From: Micractinium sp. NFX-FRZ
Taxonomy: Eukaryota; Chlorophyta; Trebouxiophyceae; Chlorellales; Chlorellaceae
Length of the DNA stretch: 64,000 nucleotides
Assembly: GCA_029339195.1 (NCBI GenBank)
Contig: JAPTJF010000023.1
Location: forward strand, 124,001-188,000
Direction: 5' to 3'
Shown here: one piece after another, positions 6,601 to 55,000 of the stretch
Layout: each line of letters opens with the position of its first letter
Numbering within the stretch: the stretch's first letter is position 1
Made by a program: the position numbers and the translations under genes
The notes under the pieces: generated by a model
The model's input: the letters and a program-made list of their open reading frames with translations, nothing else
The model's database searches: none
What the model was told of the DNA's origin: nothing

Positions 6601-9600
6601 ACAATTGTTTCACTGGCCACTTACACGCCTCTGCACACCCCAACCCCCGTGGTTTGCTGCTCACCTTCGGAGTCGTAAAACGTGCGCAGCTCGGCCAGCG
6701 TGAGAGGCGGCGGCCGCGGGCGCTCGCGCCACCCTCCCCTGCCGTTGCCGCCGCCGCCGCCCTCCCAGCCGGCGCTGCCCTCCACCAACTCAAAAGTGCC
6801 CAGCCCAGTGGGCGCTTCTTCCAAGCTGTTCCTCCTCTGCCCTGCCAGTGCCGGCGCTCCTGCTGGCCCCATGCCAGCGCCCCCTCCACCTCCTGCTGCC
6901 GCCGCTGCTGCTGCTGCATGGCGCGCCGTGCCTGCTGCAAACACAGATGCTGCGCCGCCATGGCCCGGCGGCGGCGGCGGCACGGCGGCCACGCCCAGCA
7001 GCATGCTGCCGGCAAGCAGCGAGGAGGCGGTGTCCCGCGCGCTCTGCAGGGGAGGGGAGGGGAGGGGGCACGCCAGCATGGCACAGCAGGCAGAGCAGCA
7101 ACTCAGCGGTGGGCTGTTGGGGCTGCATACAACCTCGTCAAGGGCCGCAAAGGCAGGGCAGCCTGCGCAAGAGCCACAAGAACATCTGTGCAAGCATCGG
7201 CGACGGTGCCGGGGAGCCATCCCAATATCCTAGCCTGCACTGAGCGCTCGGTGCACCCAGGGCGGCCCAGCCACCGCCCAAGATCCCACCTGCCTGGCGT
7301 GAGCTGTTATAAATCAGTCCATCAGCTCGCCCAGCTGCCCCCCACACGACTTTCCCTTCCCTTCCAACTCCTAAGCACAATGCTGCCTTCCCGAGTCAGA
7401 AGTTACTACATGCCGCAACAGCACAGTGCACCCACTCACCCGTGTAAGCTGCTGGAAGCGTCGACACAGAATGCCACAGTGCAGTGCACCCGCTAGAGTC
7501 AGAAGAGTCGGCACAGATTGTGAAACAACTGCACCCACCTGCGTGAGCTGCTGGAAGCGGTCCACCAGCTCGCCCAGCTGCGCCCGCAGCCCCATGTCGC
7601 CCTGCTCACCCGCCTGCCACTGCCCGCCCGCCAGCGGCCCTGCACGGCAAGCCGGGCGCCACGGGGGCAATTTTGAGACAGCGGGACTTCAGGGGTTGGC
7701 GGATTGGGATGAGGACAAGCAGCACCAGACGAGAGAGCACACAGCTTGGGCCAGTTGTGCATATGTGAAGAGGGTCAGACTATATGCGAGTGTAGCCGGG
7801 GCGTGTGTATGGCCTGCCGTGGCTCAGCTGGGCGCATCTGGCCGCCCGTCACTCGCTCACCCGCCAGGGACGACAGCGCCAGAGAGGCTCCAGCCGGCGG
7901 CCGGCCCGCCCCCACATCTCGCAGCTCCAGCGAACTGCAAGCGGGCGGGCAGGCAGGCAGGCAAAGCAGGTAATGGGCAGGCGGGCAGGCGGGAGACAGC
8001 CAGGCAGGCAGTGAGGAGGCAGGCGGGCGGGCAGAAGGCAGCGGTGGGGAGGGCGGGCAGAATAAAATCGGGCAGCAAACAGGCGGGCAGGGATCGTCGC
8101 ATTGGGTGCGCCTGGCGCGCAACACTGCGCAAACAACGTCGTACCCGCCGGCGCTCAACCCCTGCCCACCCACTCTGCACAAGCTTCGGTGCAGCGCGTG
8201 CACCGTGTACCGCACAGGACGAGCTGTACTTGCCATAACCCACCCCCCCAGGTCAGGCCATCAGCTCTGCCCACCCACTTGCTTACCAGAGGCTGCGCTG
8301 CAGCGGGTCCGCCGTGTCGTTGACGAGGTATGTGTTTGGGTCGTCGGCGGAGCGCACCAGGCAGGCGTGCTGGCGCAGGCAGGAGAGGAAGGATTTGACG
8401 CCGCCCTGCGAGGGTCGGGGGCAGAGGGCAAGAGGGATGAGCAAGAGGGATAGTTAGCGGGTGCCAGGGGTGGGGCCCCAATCACGCCAGCAGTCTGACC
8501 GCACACAGCAGCACCGTGCCCCAAGAAAGGAGGGCTTGCACGATATGAGGAGACAGAGAGGAGATGGATATGCCCCGGGACTCCACCCGGCCCCTTCCTG
8601 CCTCCCCAATCAGCTTCAGCCCACAAGCAGAAGATAGTGTGCATCTTTCAATCCTGACACCCAAATGGCCTGCCTCACATTCTGGAAGAAGAATGAAGGG
8701 AGGGAGACGCCAGAGGCAAGGGTGATGGTGACGTGGTGGTGACCCAGAGCGGGTGTGTGCTTGCGGATGGCCTTGATGTCGGACAGCGGGATGGGGTGCA
8801 CCTGCGGCAGGGGTTGTTGTGAGAAACCTTGAGCTTGCGCAGCACTGTCGGGGTGGCGTGGGGAGCGGGCGGAGGGTGGAGGGTGTGCCTGCGAGTGGCC
8901 TCGATGGCAGAGAGCGGGCAAACAATCAGGGGGAGGGTGGGTATGCATGTGGGTGGCCCTGATGCCTGGCAGCGGGGTGGGGTTGCACCAGCAGGTTTGG
9001 GCAGGCAGGCCAAAAATGGGGGAGGGCAGGCGTGGCACAAGGCAGGAGGGGGACGGACAATAGTTGCATTGCGCGAGGATGGCTTTGGGTGAACTGCAGG
9101 CCAGACCCCTTATGAGGCTATAAGACCCAGGCTAGGCCTGGGCCGCTGCACAGCAGGGCTGTGCGGTGCCCTGCCGCGGTGGCAGGCAGGCAGGCAGGCA
9201 GGCAGGCAGGCCGGCAGGCAGGCGGGACATGCAGTGTAGTGCAGGCATGGCGGGGAGGCGGGCGGGCACCCACCGCATACATGCTGCGGTCCTTGGCACA
9301 GTCTGCCCCTGCCGCTGCTGCTGCTGCTGCTGCCGCACCATTGCCATTGACAGCTGCGCCATTGGCAGCAGCCCCGCTGCCACCTCCGTTGCCGCCGCCC
9401 GTGCTGCCATTGCTGGCCGCGGCATCGCCTGATGGGCTGCTGCCGTTGCTGCTGCCGCCACCGTCCTTGGGCTGCTCTTGCGCTGTGCCGGCAGCAGCGT
9501 AGGGAAGCCAGCAGAGGAAGAGGCATTTGTACTGGCTGATCAGGCTCAGTCTGCCGGAGATGCGCTGCCGCCGGCTGGCCGTGGGGCACACCGTCACGCC

Positions 9601-10680
9601 CTCCTGCAGCGGGCAAGGGCGGGGCAAGCCAGCCCCGCCATTCAATCATTGCAGGGCACGCACGCAAGCGACGTCTTGCTCATGCACTTGTACCCACAGC
9701 CCACACCCTAAAGCCTCTGCTGAAAACAAAGGGGCACGTGGGACAAACTCAAGTGGTGCAAATCCCTGTCTACACTCACCCTGCCATCTCCCACTCCTGT
9801 GTGTCGTGTCCCTACCCGCCTCCATCAAACCCCTGGAATTACATAATATGTGTGTGTGTATTAGCAGAACTTCATCCCATGCCCAGGCCTCACCTTGACA
9901 TACACCACCTCTGTGTCCGTCTCCCTCCCCGCCTCCTCCACGTCACTGAATTCATCGCTGGAGCCCTGGCCGTGGTAGACGCCTGCAGGCGCGGGGCAAA
10001 GTGCTTATGGGGGCAGCATGGAGGGAGGGGGAGCAATCGGGAGGGACTCCTTCCCCCTTTACAGCTGTCTTCCATGGCACGCACGGGGCAAAGGGCGTTG
10101 GCGCAGGCCCAACAGGACGTCAGGCAGGAACCGCCTGCCTCTCCTGGCATGAACCGAACCTGCCAGCAAGCTGCTGGCCAAACAAACCGCCGCCTTGGCC
10201 CTCACCCCGCTGCCATGCAGCACCCACACTTTCCGGCCCGGTGCACCCACCTTCATACTCTTCCTCGGCCAGAGCCTCCTCCTCCCCTCCAGCGTCGTGC
10301 AGCGGGTGTGAGGCGGGGCCGGAGGTCCCGCCGCCCACCCAGTCCTCCCGAAGCGTCGCCGGCAGAGCGGCGCTGCCGCTGTGCGGCGTGCGGCGCTCGC
10401 ACACGCTGCCCTCCCGGCTCAGCCCGCCAGTCAGGCTGTCCTGCTCAGTGTACAGCACATCACCCCGCAGCACCGGGCCCTGCGGTTGCGACCGGGGAGG
10501 CGGGAGATGAAGCGGGTGGGTGGGTGGCGCGGGGGCGCCGCCAGGGAGCCGGCGCCCACAACCATGGGTTGACAGCTGCGGCCGCGCGGCGACATGAGAC
10601 CTCCCGCCATTTGAAATTTTCGCAGGAGGTCCGAGAAGGCGACCAGCGGGGCTCACCTCGCTGCAGCTGCACACTGCCAT
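3655..10680 (-). CDS. TBC-domain RabGAP, TBC1D15/GYP7 type
   Basis: Predicted GTPase-activating protein for Rab GTPases in membrane traffic. Sixteen exons: 10657-10680, 10251-10479, 9894-9982, 9274-9603, 8679-8801, 8287-8405, 7861-7934, 7539-7639, 6665-7043, 6164-6426, 5867-5959, 5670-5716, 5075-5215, 4734-4872, 4026-4123, 3655-3817. They total 803 aa in one frame. Residues about 110-330 match the N-terminal Rab-binding region of plant GYP7-like proteins (EVVYVKEGVTVCP, KAIRKHTP, NTYLVNDTADPLQRSL). The TBC domain covers about 490-750. The arginine finger is in EKDVRRTDR (R577) and the glutamine finger in GYVQG (Q614). WTFERLM, FFFCYRWILIHFKRE and LWEALWAG are further TBC landmarks. The intron after 4026 begins with GC; the family alignment across this junction (VIL-SSDWSFDEM) supports it. 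A Ser/Asn/Ala-rich insert lies at about 155-220. Introns carry diverged copies of neighbouring exon edges. Confidence 0.93.
7313..7460 (-). repeat. Diverged copies of RabGAP exon-8 edge inside the downstream intron
   Basis: The exon end at 7539-7575 (GCGTGAGCTGCTGGAAGCGG on the plus strand) recurs at about 7434-7455 as CCGTGTAAGCTGCTGGAAGC. A second trace of the exon (CATCAGCTCGCCCAGCTG) lies at about 7320-7337. Both sit in the intron next to the donor they copy. Confidence 0.6.
8868..8996 (-). repeat. Two diverged copies of the RabGAP exon-5 acceptor edge in the upstream intron
   Basis: The exon edge at 8755-8810 (TGTGCTTGCGGATGGCCTTG on plus, then the acceptor) recurs imperfectly at about 8882-8928 and 8940-8992. 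Both copies lie in the intron upstream of the real exon. Confidence 0.5.
9178..9220. repeat. GGCA tetranucleotide microsatellite
   Basis: About eight to nine consecutive GGCA units, slightly interrupted, inside an intron of the RabGAP gene. Confidence 0.8.
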
Positions 10681-13143: not shown

Positions 13144-16100
13144 TCACTTCTTGCCGCGCCCCCTGCCCGCGCCGCTCCCCCGCCCCGCCCCAGATTTGGC
13201 AGCGCTGCTGCCGCGCCCGCCGCCCGACTTGGCGCCGCCGCCTCCCCGCCCCTTTCCCTTGGGCTTGGCGGTGGTGCCGTCCTTCAGGGTCACCATCATC
13301 CCCTTGCTCTTCATGGCGTTCATCTGAGGAGAGGGATTTGCAGGAGGGGAGGGGCAGCGGTGGGGGCAGGGGCAGGGGCGCGAGCGGGGGTGGGGGACAG
13401 GGTAGGGCAGGCAAGCTGTTTGTCTTTGCCTGGGGAGTGCATGCTTCATTCTAGGTTGTGGGTACAGTGCCCCCCAAGTGTGTGCAGCACCGCAGAGAGT
13501 GTGCAACCCCAAAGTCAAGGGCCAGGCAGGCGGGAGGCGGGCAACACAGCTTCACCACCCGCAGCCCGCCCGCACTCGTGCTGCCTGCACTCCTCTGCCC
13601 ATCTGACCACCTGCCTTCCCGTCAGGCAGGCCCACCCACCTTCTTTGCCAGCATCACCGGATCCATCTCCTCCTCCTCCTCCTCCTCCTCCTGGATCTTG
13701 CTGGCCGAGCCGCCCTCCTCTTGCACGAGCGCTTCGCCTGGACGCCCGGGGAGTGGGGGGGGGCAGGGGGGAGGATCATGAGAGCTGGGCGGGCCGGCGA
13801 ATCAGCGGGGGCAAGGCCATTGCGTACCCTCCTCGTCCCTCGGTGCATCCCTCCCCCACCTCCCCTCCCCTCCCCCACCGGCACCTGGCAGCGCCCGTCC
13901 CATTCAGCTTAAAACCACACATCAACAACCGCTTTACACCATGTCTAAACGTGGCACTCACCGCCAAAGGCGTCCTCGTCGTCCTCCTCGCCCCCGCCGC
14001 CGCCGCCGCGCGCCCCCTTCCGCTTCTTGGCAAACCCCTTGCCCTCCATGCCAAAACCGGTCTTGGGCTTGACGTGCTGCTTGTTGAACTCCCGGGTGAA
14101 GGTGGACTTGACCTGTGTAGGCGATAATGATTGGAGGGTGTGCAACAAGTCTACAACAAGCTCTGCAGCGGGAGCGTGGGCCTCCATCTTTGACAAGAAT
14201 GGGTGGGAGTGAAGCTAGAGTGCTGGGCGAGGCATACGGGGCGCAACGTGGGGAGCGCAAACGGCATTGGGCAACCGTCCCTCATCCCACGCCTGCGACG
14301 TATTCACCAGCTTTTCTCCCATCCCATCCCATCCCTCCCCTGCCCTCCATCCCCACCTGCATCCCCACAAACCTTTCTTGGAGGGTTTGCGCCCTGCTTC
14401 CCGCATCTCTCCCCCATCCCTCACGCGCCCTGCCCTCCCCCTGCCCTCCCACAAACACCCCACCCCACCCCACACCACATCACCTCACCTGCGTCTCCAC
14501 CGCCTTCATGGGGTCCTCCCCCCAGCTCTGGGCAGTCTTGAACTTGGTGACGTCTGCATGTGTTGCACAGGGACGAAGGGGGGACCACAATAAGGGGTGT
14601 AGGGGGCGAGGGGTGGGGAGTGGGCATGATGGAAGGGCCGCCCCCGCCCTCCCTGGTCCCCTGCCCTGCCCCCCACGGCCCCGCACCCTCGCCAGCGCCG
14701 CAAACGACAACAACACGCGTCTCACATGTGCGGCCGGTCCACTCATGCCTTGTGATGAAGTGCACCACCGTGACGTGCAGAACCTCCACAGCACACAGCG
14801 ACACGTCATCCTGGCGATGCACCCTGCCCACTTCCGGTACACCCCCGCTCACCCGTGATGAAGTCCACGTCCTCCCGCGAGATGCAGTAGTCACGCATCT
14901 GGGCCAGCACCGCAGGCACGCCCTCCTTGCCCTGCGGCGGGGCGGTGGGCAGCAGCCGAATACAGTAAATGGGGGGAAGGTGTGCTGAGGGGTGGGGCGC
15001 CAGCACAGCAGGCACAACTTCCTGGCTGGCCCTGTCCGCGGTGGGGGCAGCAATGTGGTGCAACCTGGTGCACTCCAGCGGGTTGGCGCTTTGTGCTAAC
15101 TTGCGCAAATGTGCAAAGCGGCACATTCTGCTCTGAAGAATGTGTGCACACGTGCAGCGGCCAGGGGGCAGGGCGGCTCCCAATGCACCCGGGTGCCCTC
15201 AGCGGCGCTGCCACCCACCCTGTGCCTCCCTGGCGGGCACCGAGCCCCTGCCTGGTCCCGCCCTGCCCCGCTGTGCCGGCCCCGCTGTGCCTGCCATGCC
15301 GCCAGGCTGGCGCCAGCTCACCTCTGTGACCAGCGGGCGGGTGAGGTTGTTGCGCAGCACGGGCAGGTAGGAGAGGCGCAGGCCCGTCCTGCGGGGTGGG
15401 TGGGTGGGTGGGTGGGTGGAGGGTTGCTGGGGAGGAGGAGGTATGGGGCAGGCTGAGTGGCAGCTGCAGGTGACCGTACGCTGGCCCATCCTGCTGCCCT
15501 GCTCGCCCCTTCACAGCCCGCCGGCACAGCCCTGGCAAGGGCATCACAGCGCAGCACAGCATTGCACAGCAGGCACACCAACCCACAGCCCGCCTCCTGT
15601 CGCCAATCCTGCCCAACTGCCGGCCCTCTTGCAGTGCCGTAATCCCATCTGGACCCCCTTCCTCTCCTCATCCCTCCCCACTGCCGCCCTGCCCCGGTCA
15701 CAACCCTATCTGCTACCCGGCCCCCTTCCTCACCCTGTCTGCTGCCCGCCCACCTCCCTCACCCCCTCCACACACACACACACCTGTCGCACTCCAGCGC
15801 CCCGCTGCTCAGCATGCGCGTGTGCAGCTCCCCCAGCAGCCGCTTCTGCTTGCCCTGGCTGGAGTTGTTGCCCAGCCAGGCGGTGAACCGGGGGAAGTTG
15901 GGTTCGTTGGGCCACAGGCCCATGGCCTCGCGGTTGCCACGCATGTAGGTGGCAGGGTACACCGAGCCCATGATGGCTGCACGGGGAGAAGGCACAAAGT
16001 GTGAGGATAGGGCAGGCAGCTGAAGGGTGCTGGTGCATCCCTACCAGACGCTCTCAATCACCGTGCTGCCGGAAGCTCAAATTCTGGCACGCGCTCGCAC

Positions 16101-19100
16101 ATACAGTCACTGGCCTCCCCATGGCTAGACCTCACCCGCAAACCCTCCTGGTACTGCCCCACCTCCCCGGTGATGCCCTAACACCTGGTTCCCCCTAGCT
16201 TCCCTGCAGCCTCCCATGCCGCCTTGTGAAATGAACGACACCCCCGTAACGCACCGGCAAAGGGCATGAGGCTCCAGTTCTGGTACTGCCGCACCGCCCG
16301 CGTGGCTACGTCCCCCGCTGAGATGCCGTCTGCGGCCTTGGCGATGATGCGCAGCCGCGTGGCGTCGTCGCCCGCGATCTTGGGCCGGTGGTTCAGGTAG
16401 TTCTCCTGTTGGAGTGGGGGTGGGAGAGAGGGGAGAGAAGAGGAGTATGAGACTGCACCTAGAGCCCTGTTGGGTGGTGCTCAATGCACATGCTAGATGA
16501 GACTAGACCTCCTGCGCAACACATGCTCCCAAGTGCTCCCTGGGCAGAGCAGGCTTACGCCGCCACCGCCCCAATCCTGCGTACCCCTCAGCCCACCCCC
16601 CGGACAGTACCTGCACCAGCAGCGGCACCAGGTCCATGTCCTGGAACACCAGGTCCTGGCGGTCACTGCAACAGAGGGGAGCACAGCAGGCACAGCAGGC
16701 GAACCATGAGGAGGAGCACAGCAGGCAGAGCGTGCGGGCACCAGGTCTCCATGTCCTGTGACACCCCGGCAGCACAGCAGGCACAGCATTGCAGGCACAT
16801 TATACAGCAGGCACATCCCTTGCACAGCCCGTAATGCTGGAACAATTGGTACCAAGCACTCTTGATCAAAGCTGGCCGCTCCCTCACTTGAGGCTGAGCC
16901 CCTCCGACTCCAGGCTCAGCAGGCGGCGGGCAGCCTCAAAGGGGCTCATCTCCAAGTCCTTGGAGCTCGCCGTACCGCCTGCCTTGACCTGCAATCAAGC
17001 AGGGGGTGAGGTGGGGAATTAGAGGCGGGAGGGCAGGAGCAGGGCGGGTTGAGGATTAAGGTAGAGGGATCAGCGTCAAAGCGGAGCTGGTCAAAGTCCC
17101 CAGCCTTGACCTGTGAAGAGGGCAGGTGCAAGCAGCACAGCACACATCCCCATCCCCCACCTGTCCAGGCTGAGCATATCCCAGATCTCAGACTCGCAGT
17201 CCATCACGTGCATGCAGCAGAGCACACGTGGCGGCGGCAGGCAGGCCAGCACCACCCGGCCGGCTGGCCCGCCCGCCCAAGACGGACCTGGTCGTAGGTG
17301 AGCGACTTGGAGCGCAGGCGGATCATCTGCAGCTGGCCCAGGATCTGGCGGATGTCGCCGCCGTTGGCAGTCTGCATTTTGCAGCAAGGAGAGGCACAAT
17401 CCATTAGCTTGCAAAGTAGGATGGCGGCTTGCCCTACAGTTTGCCGGATGTCGCCGCCGTTGGGAGGTCTGCATCAAAACAGGGGGGCAGGAACAGAGGG
17501 GCTTGCGCAGAAGGAGGCCGCCTAGGCTGGCCCAGGACGCTCGCTTCCGGCCATACCCAGGGCAGCTGCATGCCCGCTGCCCACATGGCTCCCCTCCGCC
17601 ACCCCTCACACACATCTTCCCTCTGCCACCCACCTGCACCAGGGCATCCATGGTGGCCTGGTTCATGGCCAGCCCCTCCTGGGAGCAGATGTCCAGCATG
17701 CGCTTGCTGATCTGGTTGACCAGCGGCCTGCAGGCACGACAAGAAGTAAGGGAGGGACGGTCAAGCACACACACGCACGCACGCACACAGACACACACAC
17801 GTGATGATGTGATTTCAGTGCGCTTGCCGACCCACCCACATACTCGCAGACTGATGAGTACGTACTGAAGAGGGACGCAGTCACTTGCGGAAGTTCCGGC
17901 AACTGCGCGGTGGCGCACGCTCTGCGCACACATAGGTCCAGGGACTGCACCCAGCATCCACTGCTCCCGCTGCTGTTGAAACATGGCGCTGGTAGACTGT
18001 TCCTGCTGCCGCCATAACAAGCTGCTGCACTCACTTGCGGAAGTCCAGCTCCAGTGTGTGGTTGCGCAGCGACTTGAGCTTGGGCGAATACTTTTCGTTG
18101 CAGATGGCGATGATGGGGACGCGCGTGCTCTTGATGGTCTGCCGGCATATGGGTGTGTGGGCAGTAAGCGGAGGACGGGGGGAGGTGGGACAGGGAGCAG
18201 GGATGGGCAAGCGGAGCAATGGGAGGCAGGCAGGCACTCGAGGCCACGCACAAGTGTAACGACTCAGCACGCCTCCCGCTGTTGCATGCACCCCCCTCCC
18301 TGCCGCCCCTCTCCCACCCACTTGAGGCCTGTTGGCGATACATTGCCCGCCACCACCACCGGCCGGCCCTGCCATCCCACTGCACACAACACCGTACCCT
18401 TCTTTACCACGTGCCCCCGAGCACACGAAATACGGGTGGAGATGGGGAGAGGGTGTCACCTGGATGAGGCCTGTCACTCCTAACCACCGCCCCCTCAACA
18501 CACAAACACACGCATGCCAAAAGGAGTCACCTGGATGAGGTCTGACACGCCGCCCCGGTCCCCCGCCGACATCCCGTCCACCTCGTCCATCACCAGCACC
18601 AGCTGCAGGGTGGTACGGAAGAGTTGGCAAAGTGAACAGGAGAGGAGGGCGTGTTTGGTGGAATTGCATCCTCCTTGCCCATCCACAGCACCAGCTGCAG
18701 GGTGGCCACACAAACGAAAGAGGAGGGTGCATCGAGTGGGGTTCCCATGCTCCTCCACCCACCACCAGGCCCAGGCGCAGGAGCAAGAGAGGGTCGAAGT
18801 CCCACCTTCTTGCGCTTGCCCTGCGCGTCGTAAGAGATAGCCGTGTTTGTGGACAGCTCCTTGACAGCGTTGGCCAGCTTGCCGCCCACCCCCTTGAGGG
18901 CGGAGGCGTCGCTCTTGCCGCGGGTGTCAGACGCATTGACCTGGCAGGGGGGTGGAGGATGGACGGAGGGAGGGAGGGAGGGCAGGGAGGGAGGGGCGGC
19001 AAGGGGCGGGCAGCGGTCGGAGCTTGCTCTGATTATGACGTGACGTGGTGTGGTTGGGTGGTGTGGGCGAGAGGGGAAAGGCAATGTCAGCTGGCTGAAC

Positions 19101-22100
19101 CGCCCCTCAACCAGGCCCCACTTCGGTGGGCTCTTACCCCCATATTTAAAACACGTGAGCTCTGCTGGGCTCTGCTGGAACCCCCAAGCAGCAGCTCACC
19201 TCTATGGGCTCGTGACCCCGGCACACCATGGGCGCGGCCACGGGCACTTACTCCTCACGCCCTTTGAGCCGTCTAGCTCTCACACCAACAACCCCTGCTG
19301 ACCCCCCAAGCAGGGCCTCACCTCTATGGGCTCGTACCCCAGCTCCCGGCACACGATGAGCGCCGCCGAGGTCTTGCCGATGCCGGGGGGGCCGCTGAGC
19401 AGGACCGCCTTCTTCCTCAGCCCCTGCTCAATGTCGCGCTTGCCCCTGCGGGCGTGGGCACAACACACGCACAGGGTGAGGCAGTGGGATGGGGAGAGGC
19501 AAAGCAGCCGAGCAGTGCACGCTCAGCTGAGGGGCAGTCTTGACCCTCTCCTCAGCTTGCACGCAGCCCTCAACCCCTCCCTCCCTCCACCCGCCCCTTG
19601 CCCCACCCCCGCCCACCCCACCCAGCCACACAGCGCCCACACCATCCCTCTGCACTGCTCTCTTATCTCATGCTGCTGAGCACCTGCACCCCGCCTCCGT
19701 GCAGGTCCTGCCTCGACCCTCCCTCCCGTCCCCTCCTTAGCCCGCTCACCCCCTGCCGCCTCGGCACCTGTGCCGCGCCTCCATACCAGTCCTGCCCCCT
19801 GTCCTCGGACCCCTCCCTCCCTCCCCCTCCTTAGCTGGCTCACCTCATGCTGCTGGGCACCTGCACTGCGCCACCGTGCAGGTGCACGCGCTCCCAGTCG
19901 CGCAGCCAGTGCTTGAGGGTGCCCACCACGCCCTGCAGGACAAGGGACAGGCTTGGGAGCTGTGTCAGAAACTGGTACGGCCTCCAGTCACGTGGGCCAG
20001 TGTTTGAGGGCACCCACTACGTCCCAAAGGGCAAGCACACTGCCAACCAGGACAACAGGTGGGGTCCAACCAGATAGCATGAGAGAAAACAGCAGCAGAA
20101 GCGGAAAGGAAGGCTTGGCTTGCCTGGTTGCCCACGAGCTCCGCCGAGGTCTTGGGCCTCCACTTCTCCACCCACAGCTGCTGGTCCTGGGCGGGCTTGA
20201 AGGGGCGCGCCTGCTGCGCCTGCTGCGCCTGCTGCACCTGCCGCGCCTGCTGCGCCTGCTGGGCAGCCCCGTAGAAGCTGCCCGCACGCACGCCGCTGCC
20301 GCCGGCGCCCCCAGCTGCGCCGCCGGCAGGCCCAGCCGCCGGCTCCGCCTTCACCCCAGGCTCAGCCTTCGCCGCCTGCTCAACCTTCACCACCTGCTGC
20401 TGCGCCTGCTGCTGCGCCTGCTGCTGTGCCTGCTGCGCTACAGGTGGCTCCTCCTCCTCAACCTCCATGCCCTCGGGTGCCGGCGCCGCGCGCACCATTG
20501 CAAACAGCCCGTCCTCGTCAATCAGCTTGACCCCCTTGTCCTTGGCATGGTAGTACTTGGAGCGCCCCATGTGGCGCCCCGTCAGCAGGAACGACGTCTT
20601 GCCGCTCACGTTGCCCGTCACCTGGGATGAGAGGGGGGCGGCATCAACGGGCGGTGAGCTGGTGGGGAGGGACGTCGGGAAGAGGGTGTGTGATGTAGGG
20701 GGGGTGCAGCGGGGGGGAAGGGCCAAGGGACCAGGGGCAGGAAGGAGGCAGGGCAGGGGAGGGGATGCCTCTGCCTCCTGGGCCAGCATGGGGCACCCCA
20801 CCTTGCTGCCTGCATCAAGCGCTGCCTCACCCTGCCACCCCAGCCTGCCACCTCAGCAGCGCAACCCTCCTCCTGTTGGTCCCACCTTCCCCCCGTGTCG
20901 CTTGATCAAGTCCTCCGCCTCGTTCCTCATCAGGCTGTCCAGGATGCCGGTCACCACAAACGTCTTGCCCGTCAGGCAGTCGGGGTGGCCGCGCGGGGCG
21001 CGCTGCGCACGGAAGCGAGGGAGGGAGGGAGGGGGGAAGGGACGAAATGGTGGCGGCTGGGGAGGTGCCATACGAAGGGGGCGCACGTCCTTGGTTGGAA
21101 GCTGACGTGGGTGGGTGGCTTGTTGGGGGCACGCCAGCCTGCCCCCACCCCACCCCAACCTTTGGACCCCTTCCCGACGCCACCCGCCGGCACCAGCCTG
21201 CACTGGCACCACCCCCCAAATTTGAACCCCCTTCCCAGCTTCCCAGCAGCCTGGGGCCCACCTTGGAGCCGCGGTTGGGTGGCTCGTCGGGGGCGCGCCC
21301 GCCCGGGTACTGCTCCGGCAGGAAGCTGAGGTCTTGCAGCTCCTTGGCGGGCAGGGCGGATGCGGCGGCGTCCACGGCAGCCACGGCTGCCATGGCGTCG
21401 GGGTCGTCTGCAGAGGGAGGAAGGGGAGCATGAATTGATGCCTCCTTTGGACGCCTTTGATGGAATGAAAGAGGGCAGAGTGGCTAAGGCAGCGTTCGCG
21501 GGCAGGGGAGGAGGGCGGGAAGGGCGGGAGGGAGGGCGGGAAGGGCGGTGCGGATGGGTAGGGGGAGGGAGGGGACGGCCAGAAAGCAGGCAGAGGGCTG
21601 GCCGGGAGCAGGCAGGGGACTGGAGCAAGCACCCTGCTCGCTGGCTTGCCGGCGTGCAGCCAGCCAGAGAGTGTGGGCTGCTCAGGCACCATGAGCAGGA
21701 CGCATTACCTGCGATGCGCTGCAGCGCGGCCGGCAGCTTGAGCTTGCCGCTAGCGGGGGCGGCCCTGGCACGCTGCAGGCAGGGGGCGCGGCAGGCAGTA
21801 GAGGGCGGCATACGGCCAGTCAAGGCGCAGTTGTGCAGGGGGACGTTCACAGGTTGAGTGTCAGCAGGGGGTGCCTGCCCTGGGCACCCTTGCGACGCCG
21901 GTAGTGGCAGGCAGCTGACACCGCCATGCTTGCCCCGTTGGTGGCACGCCAGCGCATCATCTCCTCCCCATTGAACAACGCCTATGCAACACCCAGCCAC
22001 TTCACAAGCCGTCTATCGATGGCAACACCCCTGCAGCCGCCCCAATCCCATCCCCCACCCACCTTTGGCGCCGGCTCCTCGCTGGCGCCGCCGCTCGCCT

Positions 22101-22594: not shown

Positions 22595-22644
<50 letters not shown>

Positions 22645-27632: not shown

Positions 27633-28440
27633 TGCGCTGGCTGATGAGACCGTAGAGGGTTGAATGACAAGCGTGCCTGCAGCAGGCAGAGGTCCCCAGC
27701 CGTGGGGTGGGGCAGTGTGCGGCGAGCGGCGGCGGTCGGGGGCGAGCAGTGGCGGCGGGTTGCACCCGGCCGCATTACGCCGCGCACCCAAACTCGATGC
27801 TGAGCAGTGCGAGTTCCGGTGTACATTTGACGTCGTTCAAAGCTGGGTGGGCTCCCGGGGGAGCGGGGCGCCAGGGCTCACCTTGTCGGGCACTCGATAC
27901 CTCTGCACAAGGCGGACTGAAAGCGCTCCGAGACGGCTGCAGACAGGGCTGTGGGTTTCAATCAACGCAAGCGCATGCCTGGTTCAGCGGGGCGGCCGGG
28001 GATGACGCCATTGGTGGCGGCGGCATGGGCGGGCAGCAGGCTAGCCGTGCAGGTGGTGTGGCACCCAAATGCAAGCAGAACTACCGCCCCCTGTACCGCC
28101 TGCTGTCAATGTGCCTTGAGGCATTGGAGCGGGAGCTCAGCTTTGGTTGCCTCGCTGCATGATCAAAACGACTGAGACAGCTATCGCAGCACCGCTTGGG
28201 CAGCAGGGGCGGCGGTGGGAGCCGTCGCCCGCGACATGTACCAGCATCTGAGTCGGCATATGTTACAATAGTATTCATATCAAACCCACCAGGTGTGGTT
28301 TACGGAGTCGAGCACGTCAAATCCCATGACACTTATGTGCGCCAAGGGAGGAAGATAGAGGTGTGGTACAGCAGTTTACAGTTCAGTACAGCAGCGGGCA
28401 AATCCTGCCCAGCCCATCACCTGTCCAGGCCTGCCCCTCT
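27633..28440. other. Intergenic between tandem paralogues A and B
   Basis: About 810 bp carrying the paralogue A promoter and the paralogue B 3' UTR. Two minus-strand TGTAA signals occur at 28376-28380 and about 28262-28266. No other gene was recognised. Confidence 0.45.
28376..28380 (-). terminator. TGTAA poly(A) signal
   Basis: TTACA on plus, about 60 bp past the stop of paralogue B. Confidence 0.5.
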
Positions 28441-29830: not shown

Positions 29831-30677
29831 GAGGGTAGGCAGCGGCTGCAGCATGATGCAAGGGGGCATGCCGTGGGTAAACTGCAGCGACACGGCGGCA
29901 GTGCTGGCGACGGCGGCAGGCCCCCCAAGCGGACCAAGGCGAGGAGCAGCGACATCTGCGCGGCGATCCTGCAGCGTGACAGGCCTCCGCGTGCTCGCAG
30001 AAGAAGCAAGGGTGCGGTGCAAGCCACAGGCAGCTTCGCACCAGGGTTCTTGCGACAGCGCGTGGGTATGTTGCCGCACCTCCTTCCCACTCCTTCCCAC
30101 CGCAAGAGTGTTCTGAAACCGCAGATCGAGGTGGCTCGAGGCGAATAAGAGATCTGCATCATGCACAGCTGGCACGCCACGGAACGGCAGTGCCCACACA
30201 CAGAACGGCAGTGCCGCGGCACCTTCCCTGCCTGTGCACTGCGGGCACCCCATCTGTCCCCAGGCTAGCGACTTCCCATGTTCACAGGTCAATTGGTACT
30301 AAAAGTAGACAAACGGAGTCATATGAATGAGAGGTCAACGTGAAATGGGACAGGTCAACAGAAGTGTGCCGCATCGCCAGGCATCGCACGCTGCTGCCTC
30401 ACCACCGGAGGGAGGGCAGTGTCCGCTGGGCAGACGGCAGCGCCTCAGGGCGGCACGAGGAACCAGTCCTCGATAGCACGGAACAACAGGTGCCCCACAC
30501 CAGGCATGAGGGCCTTAATGAGGCCTCAGGGCTGCACCGGGAAGACCCAGGGCAGGCAGAGCAGGCGGCCCTTCCTTGGGGCACCAAAAAAGGGAGCGGG
30601 GTGCACAGGAGGAGCCCCAGTGGGATGAGCAGGCCCCTCATGGCGGGCGGGAGCAGGGGCCATTAGGGGCGCACTCC
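29831..30677. other. Intergenic: paralogue B promoter and CTD phosphatase 3' UTR
   Basis: About 850 bp between two minus-strand genes. Open frames on both strands lack recognisable content. The segment at about 30560-30680 contains text similar to the CTD phosphatase last exon (GGGCGGCACGAGGAACCAGT at about 30448 versus GGGCGGCACCAGGAAGCGGT at about 30681), so the 3' end of that exon is also locally duplicated. Confidence 0.45.
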
Positions 30678-44600: not shown

Positions 44601-47600
44601 GGCGGCACCGACGGCAGCCCCTCCCTGCTCGTCGGCCTGCCGGGGCGGTCCGCCAATCAGCCGTTGCACGCCGAGGTGACAAGCGGCACGCTGGCCATCT
44701 CGATCAGCGGCCCAGGGGTGGAGTCGGTGGCCCTCTCTGCGCGCGGCATGCGCTGCATCTCGCAGGCAAGGCCGGGGGCAGGAGGGGCCTGCGGGGCAGC
44801 CGGGGGCGTGGGGCGCAGGGTGGGCGGCAGCGGGAGGCATCCAATCGCTGGCTTGCTGTCCTGCAGTGGGGTAGGCATACGGTGGTTGGCCTCCTTGCGC
44901 ACCTGTCACGCCCCCGGCCTGCGGTACTTGGCAGTGTCCCAGAGCCCCCTCTCTTGCCAGCGCGGGCCTCTTCCCCCCGGGCAGCTCATGCAGCACAGCG
45001 TGCATGCCTTGTGCCTCCTGCCCTCCCCTCCTGCAGCGCTCCAAGGTGCCTCAACATCTCCTCCGACCAGTCCAGCTGTCCTCCTCCGTGGGCAAGTGGG
45101 CAGCCCATGTAACCCATGACCGCGATGTCTCGCACCTGCCCCCCTCCCCTGCCTGCAGCGCTTCATGGTCTCCCAGGTGTCCCACAACGTCGACCTCGCC
45201 CCCGTGGGACGGGTCACGCTGGTGCAGAATTTGCAGCACAGCATCGTCCTGGCCACTCGCAGCGGTCGGTGCCTGGGCGGGCGGGGGGCTGGGCCGGCAG
45301 AGGGGCAGGGCGGGGCGTGACGGGGGTGTGTGCTCCGGGCGATGGGTGGACCACCGCGCACGGGCTGCTCGCTGCCATGGCCTTGCTTGGCGGCTGCCAT
45401 TGGTTGGCGCGCCCCGCTGCCCCTCACTGGCCCCACTCATCCCTCCCTGAGTGTGCTGCCGCCACGGTGCCCCCACCCCCTTTGTACCCACGCAGACAGG
45501 AGCACCTGGGTGCCTGTGGGCGCCAGCTTCACCCCCACCTCGGCCCTGGTGTCGGCGCTGCATGCGCAGGGCCCCAACGTGGCCCCCCGCGCCCCCCTCT
45601 TCTTTGGAGTGCGCACTCCGCGGCTGCCGTACGATGTGCACGACGGGGGGTATGACGGGCACGAATCGCGGCGCATGCTCATGCTGCAGGTAAGGGGGGG
45701 GGCAGGCGGGAGGCGGGGTCTTTGGTGGCGGCGGCGGCTGGGACGGGTGATTTGTGGCTGGCAGGGTGTGGGCGGGCACCCCCGGGAGGCGGGGCGGCGC
45801 AGGAGGAGGAGGAGGGCCGACAGCGCAGGGGCCATGCTGCAGGCAAGGGATGGCGGGCTTCCCCTGATGGCCCGCCCTCGCCCTCACCCTCACCACATCT
45901 TGCATGCCCTCCTCACAGACGTTTTAAAAAATGAAAAGAAGAGAAAATAAACATTTGTCAGTGCGACTTGAAGAATCTATATCTCTTGCACGCCCCCCCA
46001 GTCACCTCGTGCGCGCCAGCGGCCACACGAGCGCATGATGCGCACCCCCTTTGCCCTGGGCTCCCGCTCCTCACCGCCGCCCCACTCCTTTTGCACGCCC
46101 CTCTTACTCCACCCACAGATGCACGACCCCAACAACCTCATGCGCACCAGCGGGTACGTGAGCGTGCAGCACCCGGTGGAGCAGGGCATGATCTCCGCCT
46201 TCTACACCCCCCAGCCCTCCCTCAGCCGGTCCCAGCTCTCAAGCGAGCTCGCCGGCGCGGCAGACGTCATCATGCAGGGAGGTGCGTGGCATCAACAGGC
46301 TGTAGCACATACCTTGTTGCCTCGCTCGCTGCTTGTGCCTGCGTGCCGCCTGCTCCGGCGCCTGCACAGCGCGGCAGAGGCTGTCGTGCAGGGCGGTGCG
46401 CGGCTCTGCCGCCCACGTGTGCCTGCTCTACTTGTGGCGTTTGTGGGTTTACCCTAAATCCTGAAACGCTAAAACCGCCTCCAACGCCTTGGCACCCATC
46501 CACACCCCCCGGGGGACCCGCCTCTGCCTCCTCCCTCCTCCGCCTGAAACGCCGTGGTTCGCCCTCACGCCGCATGCCAGTCGCCACCCCCTCCCCTCCT
46601 CCACCCTGCCCCCACCTCCCTGCAGTAAGCCACAAACCCCAGGAGTCGTCCCTGCCTCCTCCCTTATCCACCTCCCTTATCCACCTCCCTTATCCACCTG
46701 ATTGCAGTGCTTCCTCCTCACGCGGTTTCCCTGTCGCTGATGCCCTGATTCCCTGCCCACCCTCCCTGCCCACCCCCCCTCCCTTGCAGTGAGCCATGAC
46801 CCCGAGGAGGCCGCCTACCACAGCAGCAGCCCCTACCGCTCCCCAGAGATCATCCACACCGTGAGCCGCCCCTGCCGCCTGCCTGCCCGCCTCCTGCTCG
46901 CCTGCCTGCCTGCCTCTAGGCCTGCCCCCTGCCTGCCCGCCCCTCTCGTGCCCGTCTGCCCGCATGCCTACCCGCCTTCCCCGCCCGCCTCTCCCTGCCT
47001 GCCTGCCTGCCTGCCCGCCTGGCATGCTTGCCGCTCTTTCCGCTCTTTCACCCGGCATGACAGGGGCAAGTGCCTGCGATTGACCACCGCCAGCGCTGGC
47101 AATAGTGCCTCGCGCAGGCTCCTGCCCCTCCCCTGCTCTGCTGCTGCTTTGAACCCGCTCCCCGCTGGGTGGCTGCCGCCGGCGTGCTCCTCCCCTCCGC
47201 TGCCACCCTACCGCCTGCCTTGGACTCCCAACTTCATGCCTGTCGCCGGCCTTGTCCTCACTCATCCCCTCTGCGTCCCGCCCCGCTCCCCCCTGCCCTG
47301 CCCCACCCCCATCCCGCCAGGTCTTCAATGTGGCCCCCACCCCCATCCACGGCTGCCTGCTCTTCCCCTGCATGGCCAAGGGCCGCCGCTACTACGACGC
47401 ACCCAACGTGGAGACGGACATGGTGGCGGTGAGCCCGGGAAAGCGTCGCTACGCAGTGGTGCTGCACAGTACTGCTAAGCAGTGTTGCTAAGCAGTGTTG
47501 CTAAGCAGTGTTGCTAAACAGTACTGCTACACAGTATTGTGCCACCTGCTGGCGTGGTGGCGGCGAGCGTTGGATGCCTGCCTGCCTTGTAGCGGGCAGC

Positions 47601-48454
47601 TTACCGCCTGGCTTCCTCTGCCTCTCCCTCTGCCATGTGCACATCTGTCCCTACCCCTCGGCTTACCCGTCATGGCCCTTACTGCCCTCACGCCCAAACC
47701 TCATCCTGCCCTCCCCCCGCGGGAGGCCCTCCCGGGCACCCTCCCTGGGCCGGATTCTCGACCCTTTCAACTCTTTGGAACTTTTCCACCTCTGCAACTG
47801 CCCCCGTCCCGCAGGAGGCGTTGCCCGGAACCTCCCTGGCCGGCTTCTTTACACCTTCATCTCTAATACCTGTTCAAACCCCCGCCCCGCAGGAGGCGCT
47901 GCCCGGAACCTCCCTGGCCGGCTTCTTCTGCAGCGGGGAGATTGGGCCCGCCCCGCCCGACGAGCTGGCGCCGCACGACGGGCAGTCGGCACGCATGATG
48001 GGCTACAGCACCGGTGAGGGGGAGGGCGCGAGGCTGGGAGGAAAGAAGGTGGGGCTGCCTGGCATGACAGAGGAGGCACATGATTGGCAGACTGCATGCA
48101 AAGTGGGCGACAGCACCGGTGGATTGTCGCTGCCCAGGCGGACGGGCGCATGAATGCTGCGGAGGCAGAGGCGTGGCGCTGCTGGCAAGCAAGAGGCGGG
48201 CGGGCAGGACGTGCCTTGTGGCACTGCTGGCAAGCAGGAGGCGGGCGGTCAGGAGGTGTTTCTTGTGCTGGCTGGGATGGGAGGGACACCTGCCAACTTG
48301 ACTGCACACACCCTTTCCGAACTGCCATGCCCTCACCCCGCGCAACCCCGCGCCCCCGCCCGCAGTGGCCTGCCTGCTCAAGCTGACCCCCGCGCCGCCG
48401 CCGCCGGACGCCTGGGCCAACTGCCCCCTCCCTGCAATCATGCGGACGCCGTGA
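41614..48454 (+). CDS. F-box protein with FIST_N and FIST_C domains (FBXO22-like)
   Basis: Fifteen exons: 41614-41781, 42017-42133, 42483-42553, 42903-43006, 43412-43549, 43927-44036, 44290-44324, 44591-44765, 45159-45264, 45496-45689, 46119-46281, 46790-46860, 47321-47428, 47893-48013, 48366-48454. They give 589 aa in phase. The F-box (about 22-56, FADLPTELQLKCLASCNW) would recruit a Skp1-cullin ubiquitin ligase. It is followed by FIST_N features: PDLCFVFVSAR, LADCTLLAGAIAPGVLG, and HELGQRYPGETVCGGMGGG. The FIST_C part ends in LPGTSLAGFFCSGEIGP, the family's typical G-x-F-x-x-G-E-I-G-P block. FIST domains are thought to bind small ligands, and the F-box plus FIST arrangement is that of FBXO22. 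The exon-8 donor is GC. Exons 5, 9, 12 and 14 have diverged copies of their acceptor edges upstream. The acceptor of exon 6 is built from telomere-type repeat. Confidence 0.88.
42553..42603. repeat. CA-rich microsatellite
   Basis: ACACAC runs with minor interruptions in the third intron of the F-box/FIST gene. Confidence 0.8.
43886..43926. repeat. Interstitial telomere-type repeat (CCCTAAA)n forming an intron 3' end
   Basis: Three exact CCCTAAA units preceded by degenerate CCCCAAA/CCAAAA units. The array ends in CCCTGCAG, which is the acceptor of the exon starting at 43927. CCCTAAA/TTTAGGG is the plant and chlorophyte telomere repeat. Confidence 0.9.
45028..45062 (+). repeat. Diverged copy of F-box/FIST exon-9 acceptor edge
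   Basis: CTCCTGCAGCGCTCCAAGGT at about 45030 echoes CTGCCTGCAGCGCTTCATGG at the real acceptor (about 45149). It lies about 118 bp upstream in the intron and has an intact CAG. Confidence 0.6.
46605..46700 (+). repeat. Copy of exon-12 acceptor edge plus a 14-bp tandem repeat
   Basis: CCCTGCAGTAAGCCACAAAC (about 46618) resembles CCTTGCAGTGAGCCATGACC at the real exon-12 acceptor (about 46782). Next to it, CTCCCTTATCCAC repeats about three times at 46660-46700. Confidence 0.65.
47467..47540. repeat. Short tandem repeat, GCTAAGCAGTGTT unit
   Basis: About five imperfect units of roughly 15 bp (TTGCTAAGCAGTG) directly inside the intron after exon 13 of the F-box/FIST gene. Confidence 0.85.
47713..47856 (+). 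repeat. Two upstream copies of F-box/FIST exon-14 acceptor edge
   Basis: The edge GCAGGAGGCGCTGCCCGGAA of the real exon (47889) recurs almost exactly at about 47811 (one change in 20, identity continuing through GGCCGGCTTCTT). A more diverged copy occurs at about 47718. The nearer copy keeps a CAG acceptor and is 78 bp (26 codons) upstream with no stop between, so it could be used in frame. Confidence 0.9.
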
Positions 48455-50434: not shown

Positions 50435-50767
50435 TAGCTGGAACTGGGAGGCGGCAGGGCATGCTAATGTTGGAGCCGTGTTGGAACTTCCGACTCGGAA
50501 GGACGAGAAGGGCGAAGGATGGTATGAAATCACGCGAGGAACCGGAAGGGATAGCTACCAAGCACCCAGGGCCCGGCAATTGCTCACGCCGCTCAAGTTG
50601 TCTGGACACGCTGGCAGTGGCGCGCTCGAGTTGGCATGCAATCGGTTGTGGGCGTCACGTCATTCGGGGCGAATTGGCATCGGTGGATGACTCATTGATG
50701 AGCCCTGATCGCCTGTCGCACCTCTCCACCCTGCGACTTGCTCGCTCCCGCCTTGCTTGCCTCCCGA
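50435..50767. promoter_or_regulatory. Shared divergent promoter, SIS-domain protein (-) / P-loop kinase (+)
   Basis: 333 bp between divergent start codons, with no coding content recognised. The close head-to-head arrangement makes a bidirectional promoter likely. No TATA box was seen. Confidence 0.4.
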
Positions 50768-51934: not shown

Positions 51935-52065
51935 CAAGAGCAGTTTCGTCACAGCACAACGACGGGTGCCAGCTAGGCGGCGGGAGCTCAAAACTCCCAC
52001 TCTCTTGACCGTCTTGGGCGTCAAATTCGCGTGTTCTCCGGCTCTGTTGGGGCCCTCCCATTGCA

Positions 52066-55000
52066 ATGACAGCCCGGGAGGACGCCCTGTGCGCGCTGCT
52101 GGCTCCCGAGCACCAGGAGGTGGTGCTGGGGCTCCTGCTCAGCACCCGCGATGTCCGCATTGCCGTGCCGTGCTCCGTGCTCAGCAAGGGCGCCAGCGGC
52201 GCCGGCACCAAGGTGGTGGTGAACGTTCTTCGGCGGTCGCAGCAGGGCGGCACAAGCCTCGCTCTCGATTGCGGCCGCTGGTGGCGCGGTGCTCCCACCG
52301 GTTCAGTGTGGATGGATTACCGCCAGGTAAAAACGCGCGGGCGTGGGGAAGGCCGCCGCCGCCGTCGCCGATGGCGGGAAAGCACCATTGCAGCACGCGG
52401 GGTGCCTGGCCGTCAACCGTGTGCCCTGCCCCTCCTACACTTTCCTCCCTGTAGTTGCTGCAACACGCCAATGATGACGCGCTGCGCGTGCTGCACAGAA
52501 AACTGGCGGTGAGTTGCCGGGGTGTGGAATGCCTGGCCTGGCGGCGCCTGCTCCCCCGTGCACCCCCTGGCTGCAAGGTTTGTACAAGCCACCCATGTGC
52601 CTGCCTGTGCCTGCAGGCCATCGCCAAGTCGCGCAACCGGGGGCTGTCCAGGACGCAGTCAGTGCCTGGGCGCATCTCGTTTGAGGAGCTGACTGGCAGC
52701 ATCGGCAGCGGTGGGAGCAGCGGCCCCCTTGGCGGCCCAGGCGGCGGCGGCTTCGGTGCCGCCTCCCGGCTGCAGCGCACCAGCAGCTCGGGGCTGCCGC
52801 CCAGCGGCCTGCAGCGCACTGGCAGCATAGGGCTGCCTCCCAGCGGCCCCTCCAGCCTGCGCCGCACCAGCAGCGTCGACCTGCCGGCGGGCGCCCGGCG
52901 CGGCAGCGGGGGCGCTGGGCAGGCGCGCGGCGCCGCCGCCGCCGCCGGCCTGCACCGCCTGTCTGCCCCGGCCCTGCGCCGCTCCCGCAGCTCCTTTGGC
53001 AGCAGCAGCTCTATGGACGGCTCTCCCGCCACATCTCCAGCAGACTCTGAGGACGAGTTTGTGACTCCTGAGAAGCTGCAGCAGGCGGCTGCCGAAGCGT
53101 CAGCCATGTCGGCCACCTGCACGCCCACGCCGCCCGCGGTGCGCGGCCTGCCGCCCGCCTGCCTGTCTTTCGAGGACTCTGCCGGCCCACGGCTCGCCCC
53201 CAGCGCCTTCATGTCCCCAGGCAGCGGCGTCAGCAGCTGCAGCACGGCGCACCCAGTGGCGGACCTATCGGGCCAGTGGTACGGCGCCAGCGCCAGCACC
53301 AGCGTCAGCGCCAGCGCCGGCAGCAGCCCGTACACCGCCACCTGCACACCCGTGAGCGGTGCCAGCCCGCACACCGCCACCTGCACACCCCTGACTGGCG
53401 CCAGCCCGGCGGGCGCCTCCACCTGCGGCCCCTCCCCCGCCGTGCCCTCCCGAGCCCTCAGCGACAGCAGCACCGCCACCAGCGGGGGACTCACACTCTC
53501 CCGGCAGCCCACCTTCAGCCAGCCCTACTTTGCCGAGTTTGAAGATGAGCTCGAAGCAGAGGCCAGCAGGGCTTCTGCTGGTTTGAACGCGACGGCGGGC
53601 TCGGCAGGGGGCGCGGTGCGGCCGGCGTCAGCAGCAGCGGCAGCGCAGGGCGGGCAGTCGGGCTCGACCACGCCACGCGCAGCGCCAGCGGAGCTCTCAG
53701 CGGAGAACTCTGGGTCGGTGCGTGCGGCGCAGCTGCTGGCAGCGGAGGAGCACATGACGGCAGAGGAGCTGCACGAGGTGAGGACCTTTGCTATGTTTGT
53801 TTCCTCAGTTAGAGGTGGGGTTGGGCGAGGTGGCGCAGCTGGTGCTGGGATGGGCGGCGCCGCTGCGGGCAGCACACGACGGCGGAGGAGCTGCACAAGG
53901 TGAGAACATGGTTTGTTCTTCTGTATAGGGGTAGGGTTTTCTCAGTCAAAGGTGGGGTTGGGTTTAACGGATCGATGTGAGCTAGTGTGCCTACCAGGGG
54001 GAGAGCTGCCCACAGCAGAGCTTCCCGCCTCCCAGCCTCCTCATCTCCCGGGCCTGTACCCACCTCTCCCCAACAGCAACCTGCCCCCCGTCCTCTCACC
54101 CCTTCCCCTCCCCGCAGGTGGCCGCCTCCTTCAACCACGTCTTTGTGCCGCCCTGGGCGGTGCCCTCCGCCCCGCAGCAGGCGGTGGTGCGCACGTACCG
54201 CGAGGCGGGGGTGCAGACCAGCACGGGGGCGGCAGAGAGCGCGACGCCGGTGCGGCAGACGCACACGGAGGAGGACGCATCGGACCACTTCCAGGTGGGT
54301 GCCAAGGACAGGAAACGAACGGGGCGCTTGGCTCTGCCAGGGGGTGGTTTCTGGTTGGCAGCTGAGCGGGCTTCCCGCAGGGCGTGGTTTTGGGTCGGCG
54401 GCTGAGCGGGTGCGGTGACCTCCGCCAGGTGGGGGCATTGAGGCGTGTGTGAGTTCATCACATGTCGTTTCTTGGAGTGGTGGCAGGTCGACCTCTTCTG
54501 CTTGGCCCGCCCCAGCCTGCTCCTCAACCTGACCCTTCTCCTCCACCCATTGTCTCCGCCTGCCGCCCCTGCAGGCCTTCATGCAGCACTTTGCCGCCTC
54601 GCTGCCCCACCTGGCCATGGCGCTGGCAGACATGCACCTGGGGAGGGGAGGGCAGGACCCCACATTCGTGAAGAGCCAGGTGTGTGGGAGGGCGGAGTGA
54701 TAGGCGGGAGTGATAAGTGGGGGAGGATGGAGTGGCAGCAGGGGTGGGTGCTGGGCAAGGAGAGGGGCGACCGAGGACCCACTCTTGCAAGGAGCCAGGT
54801 TCGGCGGAGGGAAAACGGAGGGGTGGGGCCGTGGGAAGAGTTGGCTTCCCCGCCTCGCTCCCTGCATTTCTCCCCTGCTGCCCATGCTCTGCCTCTTTTG
54901 TGGTGCACCCTGCTGTGTTACCCTGCTGCTGCTGTCCTGTGGCCTGCCTTTCTGCGCCGCTCCCTCTCGCTCCCTCCTTCCACCATCCGTCCACACTCGT

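Follow-up and report, generated by a model that had tools for sequence, protein, structure and literature searches.

The potato RdRp gene provides a case of tandem duplication across the boundary between an intron and an exon (PMC4974935). A model of intron creation likewise has short tandem duplications within genes supplying duplicate splice sites (PMC3443670). Small direct tandem duplications (<100 bp) are a common class of insertion at repaired breaks, and have also been inferred for plants, from nearby breaks on opposing strands (PMC8355091). Introners, as far as the excerpts of their description extend, represent a process acting on introns genome-wide (PMC9860276). Here we describe copies of exon edges in the introns of the green alga Micractinium sp. 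NFX-FRZ, examined from a 64,000-nucleotide stretch of contig JAPTJF010000023.1 (positions 124,001 to 188,000; “the window”) outward. Roughly one in sixteen exon edges is matched, some 100 bases into the adjoining intron, by a decayed direct copy that usually includes the splice site.

The algal copies share features with each of these systems. As in the potato gene, splicing signals are copied together with the boundary; the passages available on potato present a single recent case with a new intron, whereas the alga carries many decayed intronic copies whose inner sites, judged from their sequence, are apparently unused. The model of PMC3443670 also relies on short duplications within genes, but there an exonic AGGT is duplicated and the new intron spans one unit, while 48 of 56 adjacent pairs in the alga have the inner copy within the intron. 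Break-repair duplications are short and direct, as are those in the alga; in the excerpts consulted, splice junctions are not named as their sites, and algal offsets are somewhat larger, with the full unit often unrecognisable. Like introners, as these are presented in the portion of PMC9860276 at hand, the algal copies affect introns genome-wide, but no shared element was found between them and no new introns are shown. Among the matches listed (titles and beginnings of abstracts, with subscription literature mostly outside the search), none described edge copying as a general process.

In 324 kb of sequence with 1321 exon edges, 83 edges have a direct copy at an offset of 60-260; 47 of them are donor and 36 acceptor edges. 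The offset was 70-170 in 79 of these, and the exon part was ≤50 nt in 72. Over the three blocks examined first, described below, the scan gave 71/1090 edges under this wider criterion and 63/1090 under a narrower first criterion. When offsets of 35-400 were scanned, 25 of 49 exon-intron pairs (score ≥36) fell at 95-125 and 4 below 80. Edges were also aligned to their own introns in these three blocks; matches were obtained for 28/446 donor and 28/446 acceptor edges, affecting 53/446 introns (37/191 among the more confident introns).

The controls were nearly empty. Reversed (reverse-complement) edges matched in 1/892 cases versus 56/892 for direct edges, confirming that copies are direct and lie, as the earlier note had proposed, downstream of donors and upstream of acceptors. 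Edges aligned to other introns gave 1 match in 2668, and stretches inside exons, 60-120 nt away from the junction, gave 1/414 when aligned to their own intron, a figure that exon edges far exceed. Direct repeats at offsets of 31-230 with scores ≥30 numbered 55 in the window, 67 in C1:1-100000 and 34 in C23:1-100000. The same scan yielded 0-4 repeats per 100-offset scan at offsets ≥1000, and 0-4 per scan after one dinucleotide shuffle per block. The excess over shuffled sequence, which had been suggested as a check, is thus present in all three blocks. The block added later gave 12/231 edges and 9/98 introns with copies, 0/196 for reversed edges, 0/974 for other introns, and 32 direct repeats versus 3 and 0 at far offsets.

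The 324 kb were taken from an assembly of 66 Mb in 838 contigs, GC 66%, and comprised the window (C23:124001-188000), C1:1-100000, C23:1-100000 and, added later with gene model and thresholds frozen beforehand, the 60 kb of C5:100001-160000. Gene models were predicted from sequence alone; the gene finder learned its parameters from this genome itself and converged on donors AG/GTGRG and acceptors TGCAG/G (the slash marks the junction). An initial unsupervised training was discarded due to drift to very short introns. Note that the gene finder's errors include fusion of neighbouring genes, spurious micro-exons and probably a few missed exons. Copies were sought with a banded self-aligner after masking short-period repeats, and edge scans were confined to offsets of 60-260 and excluded exons <30 nt. 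For own-intron alignments an edge consisted of 60 nt of exon and 12 nt of intron; 446 of 600 introns were kept, namely those of 80-700 nt whose flanking exons both measured ≥40 nt. Cases were termed “clean” if the copy was not partly called exon (61/71 edges in the three first blocks, 70/83 in all blocks). When repeat pairs were sorted by the labels at their midpoints, some arrays that span a junction were counted as intron pairs; the direct edge scan replaced this sorting.

Twenty pairs of copy and original had been named in the window by the earlier note, which held that introns contain diverged copies of the adjacent exon edge. All 20 are present on alignment, and 18 exceed a score of 28, the 99th percentile for 6000 pairs of windows at the same offsets (genuine repeats are included in this background); the two below are 33430/33229 (score 25) and 43287/43405 (score 26). 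The placement of the originals at exon edges agrees with the gene models for 15 of the 20, and that of 16738/16625 is exonic and stops 15 nt before the edge. The remaining four are not at a model edge: 22538/22696 lies inside one model exon, 26390/26473 overlaps exon 26514-26629 by just 6 nt, and the models assign 8882 and 8940/8755 to an intron (possibly a missed exon). In the window, the edge scan returned 24 edges with a copy, their offsets ranging from 71 to 243.

The copies decay about neutrally. Divergence in the exon part is mostly 4% to 25%, and the splice dinucleotide is intact in 34 of 50 mappable copies, where 73% would be expected from exon-part identity. Mismatches between copy and original are distributed over codon positions as 106/94/134, and 115/326 are synonymous, compared with 24% under random change (p 2e-6). 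From the codon positions and the synonymous share we reckon that ∼85% of changes sit in the copy, the rest being synonymous changes in the exon. The supposition that one copy decays while the exon stays is supported. Constraint on the copies, tested via dinucleotides and mismatch classes, was without clear support. Introns with copies are longer (median 355 versus 229; p 9e-10), and the mean difference of 100 bp corresponds to about one offset. The suggestion that duplication lengthens introns agrees with this difference, with the reservation that longer introns also give more room for copies.

We give roughly even chances to the explanation that the edge copies arise from short local direct duplications filtered by splicing. 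Gene bodies would acquire short direct duplications, mostly with offsets of 70-170 bp. Where one of these spans a junction, the outer splice sites would remain in use, leaving the protein unchanged and lengthening the intron by roughly one offset; decay would then set in at the inner copied edge and its splice site. The choice between duplicated splice sites depends on spacing and exon context. Duplications seem to be lost when they carry more than ∼50 nt of exon context, the probable reason being that splicing would then take place at the copied site. Junction events would stay visible far longer than intron-only ones because selection freezes the exon copy, and a general supply of duplications would leave in-frame survivors in exons, faint traces in introns and clear cases at junctions. 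The copies, their direct orientation, near-neutral decay and short exon part, the longer introns and the recurrence in a later block are observed; duplication itself, splicing at the outer sites and the filter are inferred.

Similarity past the aligned core continues weakly on the intron side (z 6.7) and ends sharply on the exon side (z 0.13; 1.55 in a second test), as a junction-spanning duplication predicts. Whole-unit arrays occur, for example in the intron at C1:85353-85726 and beside C5:5591-5674. The intron half is alike in 22 of 78 units, compared with 2.0 for unrelated pairs (these intron-half tests excluded offsets >200), and has a gap rate of 0.36 per mismatch where it aligns. The position of the junction within the unit is not random, since the exon part is too short: 12% of exon parts exceed 50 nt versus 54% expected for units slid randomly over the junction (0/5000 simulations), and simulated detection rises with exon-part length. 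An earlier estimate of 4% used a criterion that lost cores ending far from the junction; 12% is the inclusive value.

Near repeats were also counted by location (score ≥32, per million search cells). Densities were 2.83 for an exon with its adjacent intron (53 pairs), 3.74 within the same intron (48 pairs), 2.86 within the same exon (18) and 0.70 in intergenic DNA (2), the four other pair classes contributing 10 pairs together. Same-intron pairs include short-period arrays and additional edge copies. Targeting to junctions is not shown, because near repeats are no denser there than inside introns; by the yardstick that the earlier note had itself set, density in exon and intron interiors, the idea of a junction-specific process is not supported. 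Equally old intron-only duplications would be nearly invisible, because the intron half of a junction unit alone reaches a score of 30 in just 3/47; eight intron-only repeat pairs were seen in introns without an edge copy. Pairs of a junction-spanning and an intronic copy numbered 37 versus 23.6 expected from rotation of gene labels, with shortfalls for junction-with-exon pairs (2 versus 9.2) and intergenic pairs (2 versus 7.1) and most other classes near expectation. Offsets of same-exon repeats are divisible by three in 30/38, the pattern that loss of out-of-frame repeats would give. Among 18 young pairs, 11 join an exon and an intron, 3 lie wholly in introns, 3 wholly in exons and 1 in intergenic DNA; these numbers are too small to decide.

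Several results weigh against local duplication filtered by splicing. The intron half is alike (score ≥22) in 31% of units, whereas simulation of whole-unit duplications through the same pipeline gave 54% to 77%: 54-56% when matched on identity and score (four settings with 0.1-0.8 indels per substitution) and 68-77% when matched on identity alone. The shortfall is widest where exon identity is ≥0.93, the intron half being alike in 5/15 versus 71-78% simulated, with no rise with identity. One 28-nt exon edge was copied together with 6 nt of donor without a mismatch, between unrelated flanks. Similarity extends beyond the supposed end of the unit (z 4.8), and therefore further (third) copies are needed. 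The excess of synonymous mismatches might equally reflect some copies being weakly constrained. Both edges are copied in 13 internal exons versus 5.1 expected (permutation in 10-kb bins; 0/2000); longer visibility in conserved exons may explain part of this excess. Finally, C23:1-100000 is almost without copies (3/182 introns), which a uniform process does not explain. The earlier proposal of tandem duplications spanning the junction thus agrees with the continued intron-side similarity but falls short as a full account, the intron half being too dissimilar and the exon part too short. Allowing for age uncertainty, whole-unit duplication is individually rejected (p<0.05) for 12/78 units, or for 10 or 5 with heavier indels. 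A first version of this test (intron half ≥30 in 10/78 versus 54.5 expected) was set aside since it took no account of the core being better conserved than the rest; the deficit in the full simulations is smaller but still distinct. By our own estimate, perhaps about half of the copies behave as whole units, and the rest would be short tracts or have intron flanks with a faster turnover than in the simulations.

Short tracts are what a second explanation predicts, in which ∼20-60 nt anchored at the splice junction are copied ∼100 bp into the intron and the rest of the intron is not, possibly by repair at sites of co-transcriptional splicing or at R-loops. The unlike intron halves of most units and the rarity of exon parts >50 nt favour it, as does the end of the core 3-8 nt beyond the junction in 30% of cases versus 7-17% of simulated whole-unit duplications. 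Cores that stop before the junction are a minority (17/78), and both-edge copies exceed the shuffled expectation. About a third of units, however, have an alike intron half, some form multi-copy whole-unit arrays, and the raw density at junctions is no higher than in intron interiors. No mechanism is known to us by which the footprint of a splice site would be copied into DNA. We consider such junction-coupled copying rather unlikely. A broader statement of it, that splice junctions are a preferred source of short DNA copies in this lineage and that copying of the first or last 20-50 exon nucleotides with the splice motif is coupled to transcription or splicing, we hold to be slightly more doubtful still; if it were true, introns would grow by piling up dead exon edges, with both ends of one exon copied more often than chance.

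Copies cluster by gene (0/2000 permutations), with 20/96 introns affected in the window and 30/168 in C1. The fused stretch that includes RFC1 has copies in 14/42 introns and one C1 gene in 7/13, compared with 0/70 introns in an array of LRR-kinase genes and 0/253 edges in C23:40000-100000. Introns of this cold region are not independent, because part of it is one expanded LRR-kinase family. The array (L019-L024, C23:35899-83029) is predicted to encode LRR receptor-like kinases, with Pfam run on one excerpt; 0/97 introns in its two gene stretches have an edge copy. A predicted long exon nearby (L024, C23:84196-88312) contains DNA-level repeats of ∼99-102 and 197-201 bp, which may be coding repeats of ankyrin type. 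At C1:48828-61691 (L010-L012) two genes lie head to head, with edge copies in 10/26 introns; Pfam was run on one, and both resemble what we take to be flavodiiron proteins.

That the copies are functional decoys or alternative splice sites, as had been suggested, and are kept by selection is very unlikely. Some remain credible decoys because 17/50 score above the 25th percentile of model sites (9/26 donor, 8/24 acceptor), and the synonymous excess points the same way. A role in alternative splicing is nevertheless without support, because the dinucleotides decay near neutrally and use of the copied site would shift the frame in 31/50 or add a stop in 11/50 (42/50 together), staying open and in frame in 8/50. 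Offsets also show no frame preference (remainders 0/1/2 modulo three: 22/19/20 among 61 clean cases). Creation of introns when an exon segment with an AGGT is duplicated in tandem (PMC3443670), another proposed outcome, is less probable again. The copy should then mark the opposite end of the new intron, and the copied junction does lie ≤16 nt from the far intron end in 6/56 adjacent pairs, at least one of which is due to a spurious 3-nt exon called by the gene finder. Position gives no support in the other 50, the copied junction lying 41-428 nt inside the intron in 48 and well beyond the intron in 2.

Insertion of a mobile element beside splice sites with long target-site duplications is highly improbable. 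In its favour, some copies have abrupt limits at either end and unrelated intervening sequence, but the 68 between-copy stretches form no evident family (62 cross-hits versus 74 for random intron pieces), more than one match in the 324 kb was found for 7/68 versus 13/68 in the control, and two stretches matched only themselves in a whole-genome search, which does not prove rarity. An artefact of low complexity, gene finding or assembly is equally improbable: spurious micro-exons and fused genes do occur in models predicted in this way, but short-period repeats were masked, the shuffled, far-offset, reversed and other-intron controls are nearly empty, copy divergence is unlike that of assembly duplicates, and relatives back 11 of 16 RFC1 junctions.

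That backing was obtained by aligning the RFC1 protein with 31 relatives. Eleven junctions are without an indel in at least 28 of them (nine in 31/31, one in 30, one in 28). The five weak junctions are supported by 19, 19, 14, 2 and 0 of 31, the last two flanking exon 19844-19932. The junction SDLIQ/TIKST is supported by 31/31 relatives, QGKRKK/LVLVMD by 28/31 and MDALVQ/TANGGD by 19/31. Many green-algal relatives were found, the closest named one being Parachlorella kessleri (63%). Pfam searches with hand-typed joins of window exons identified RFC1, an NIF-type phosphatase with BRCT (the CTD-phosphatase gene of Table 1) and FIST.

Table 1. Exon-edge copies in the window, with positions numbered from its first nucleotide
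Feature	Copy	Strand	Original	Score	Offset	Remarks
Donor-edge copy, exon 2670-2968	2515..2561	-	2657-2702	39	141	
Donor-edge copy, exon 7539-7639	7287..7342	-	7532-7585	49	243	
Second donor-edge copy, exon 7539-7639	7433-7460	-		36		
Donor-edge copy, exon 8287-8405	8162..8208	-	8267-8317	36	109	
Donor-edge copy, exon 9894-9982	9775..9823	-	9889-9936	39	113	
Acceptor-edge copy, RFC1 exon 14853-14931	14999..15026	-	14903-14930	31	96	
Donor-side exon-stretch copy, RFC1 exon 16255-16405	16148..16167	-	16280-16299	30	132	core 25 nt short of junction
Acceptor-side exon-stretch copy, RFC1 exon 16611-16665	16737..16765	-	16624-16650	35	113	core 15 nt short of junction
Acceptor-edge copy, RFC1 exon 17288-17371	17442..17474	-	17346-17377	47	96	junction 19/31 relatives
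Donor-edge copy, RFC1 exon 18531-18602	18452..18480	-	18523-18551	38	71	junction 31/31 relatives
Acceptor-edge copy, RFC1 exon 18531-18602	18669..18705	-	18577-18613	49	92	junction 28/31 relatives
Donor-edge copy, RFC1 exon 19322-19445	19172..19239	-	19295-19367	65	128	junction 31/31 relatives
Donor-edge and intron-part copy, RFC1 exon 19844-19932	19680..19782	-	19764-19875	67	93	intron half score 40; junction 2/31 relatives
Acceptor-edge copy, RFC1 exon 19844-19932	19996..20035	-	19905-19944	35	91	junction 0/31 relatives
Donor-side exon-stretch copy, RFC1 exon 21262-21407	21106..21139	-	21270-21303	38	164	core 8 nt short of junction
Donor-edge copy, CTD-phosphatase exon 30690-30953	30443..30480	-	30676-30713	46	233	
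Donor-edge copy, CTD-phosphatase exon 31552-31720	31447..31493	-	31543-31589	54	96	
Acceptor-edge copy, CTD-phosphatase exon 31552-31720	31799..31848	-	31690-31736	43	109	
Acceptor-edge copy, CTD-phosphatase exon 33195-33248	33309..33351	-	33213-33254	47	96	
Acceptor-side exon-stretch copy, FIST-gene exon 46119-46281	45996..46033	+	46127-46164	31	131	core 8 nt short of junction
Donor-edge copy, FIST-gene exon 46119-46281	46369..46404	+	46255-46290	37	114	half called exon by model
Acceptor-edge copy, FIST-gene exon 46790-46860	46589..46645	+	46751-46809	38	164	
Two successive acceptor-edge copies, FIST-gene exon 47893-48013	47706..47849	+	edge in 47798-47927	102	78-92	
Donor-edge copy, FIST-gene exon 47893-48013	48086..48121	+	47981-48016	37	105	
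Donor-edge copy, exon 52617-53777	53854..53907	+	53724-53785	57	130	half called exon by model

Other repeats are present in the window. An intron of the CTD-phosphatase gene contains a minisatellite of about seven 44-bp units (30990-31304). Next to this gene, at 25921-29845 on the minus strand, are two neighbouring sets of alike predicted exons (for example LASVEDLKGGVEDRAYRLHY and LASLEDLKGGVEDRAYRLHF); judging from their sequence, these are probably a tandem gene duplicate that the gene finder fused to the phosphatase gene. In the FIST gene, an interstitial telomere-type repeat (∼5.7 copies of ACCCTAA, 43883-43922) forms the end of an intron and abuts the acceptor CCCTGCAG/GCGAGTGG of a model exon.

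About one intron in eight (53/446 in the three first blocks) bears a natural duplication of a splice site, and by extrapolation the genome would hold thousands of copies if the 324 kb are typical. The copies offer a concrete route of intron growth. If the splicing filter is real, they would also amount to natural minigene experiments on the exon context (∼50 nt) that a correct splice site needs for use.

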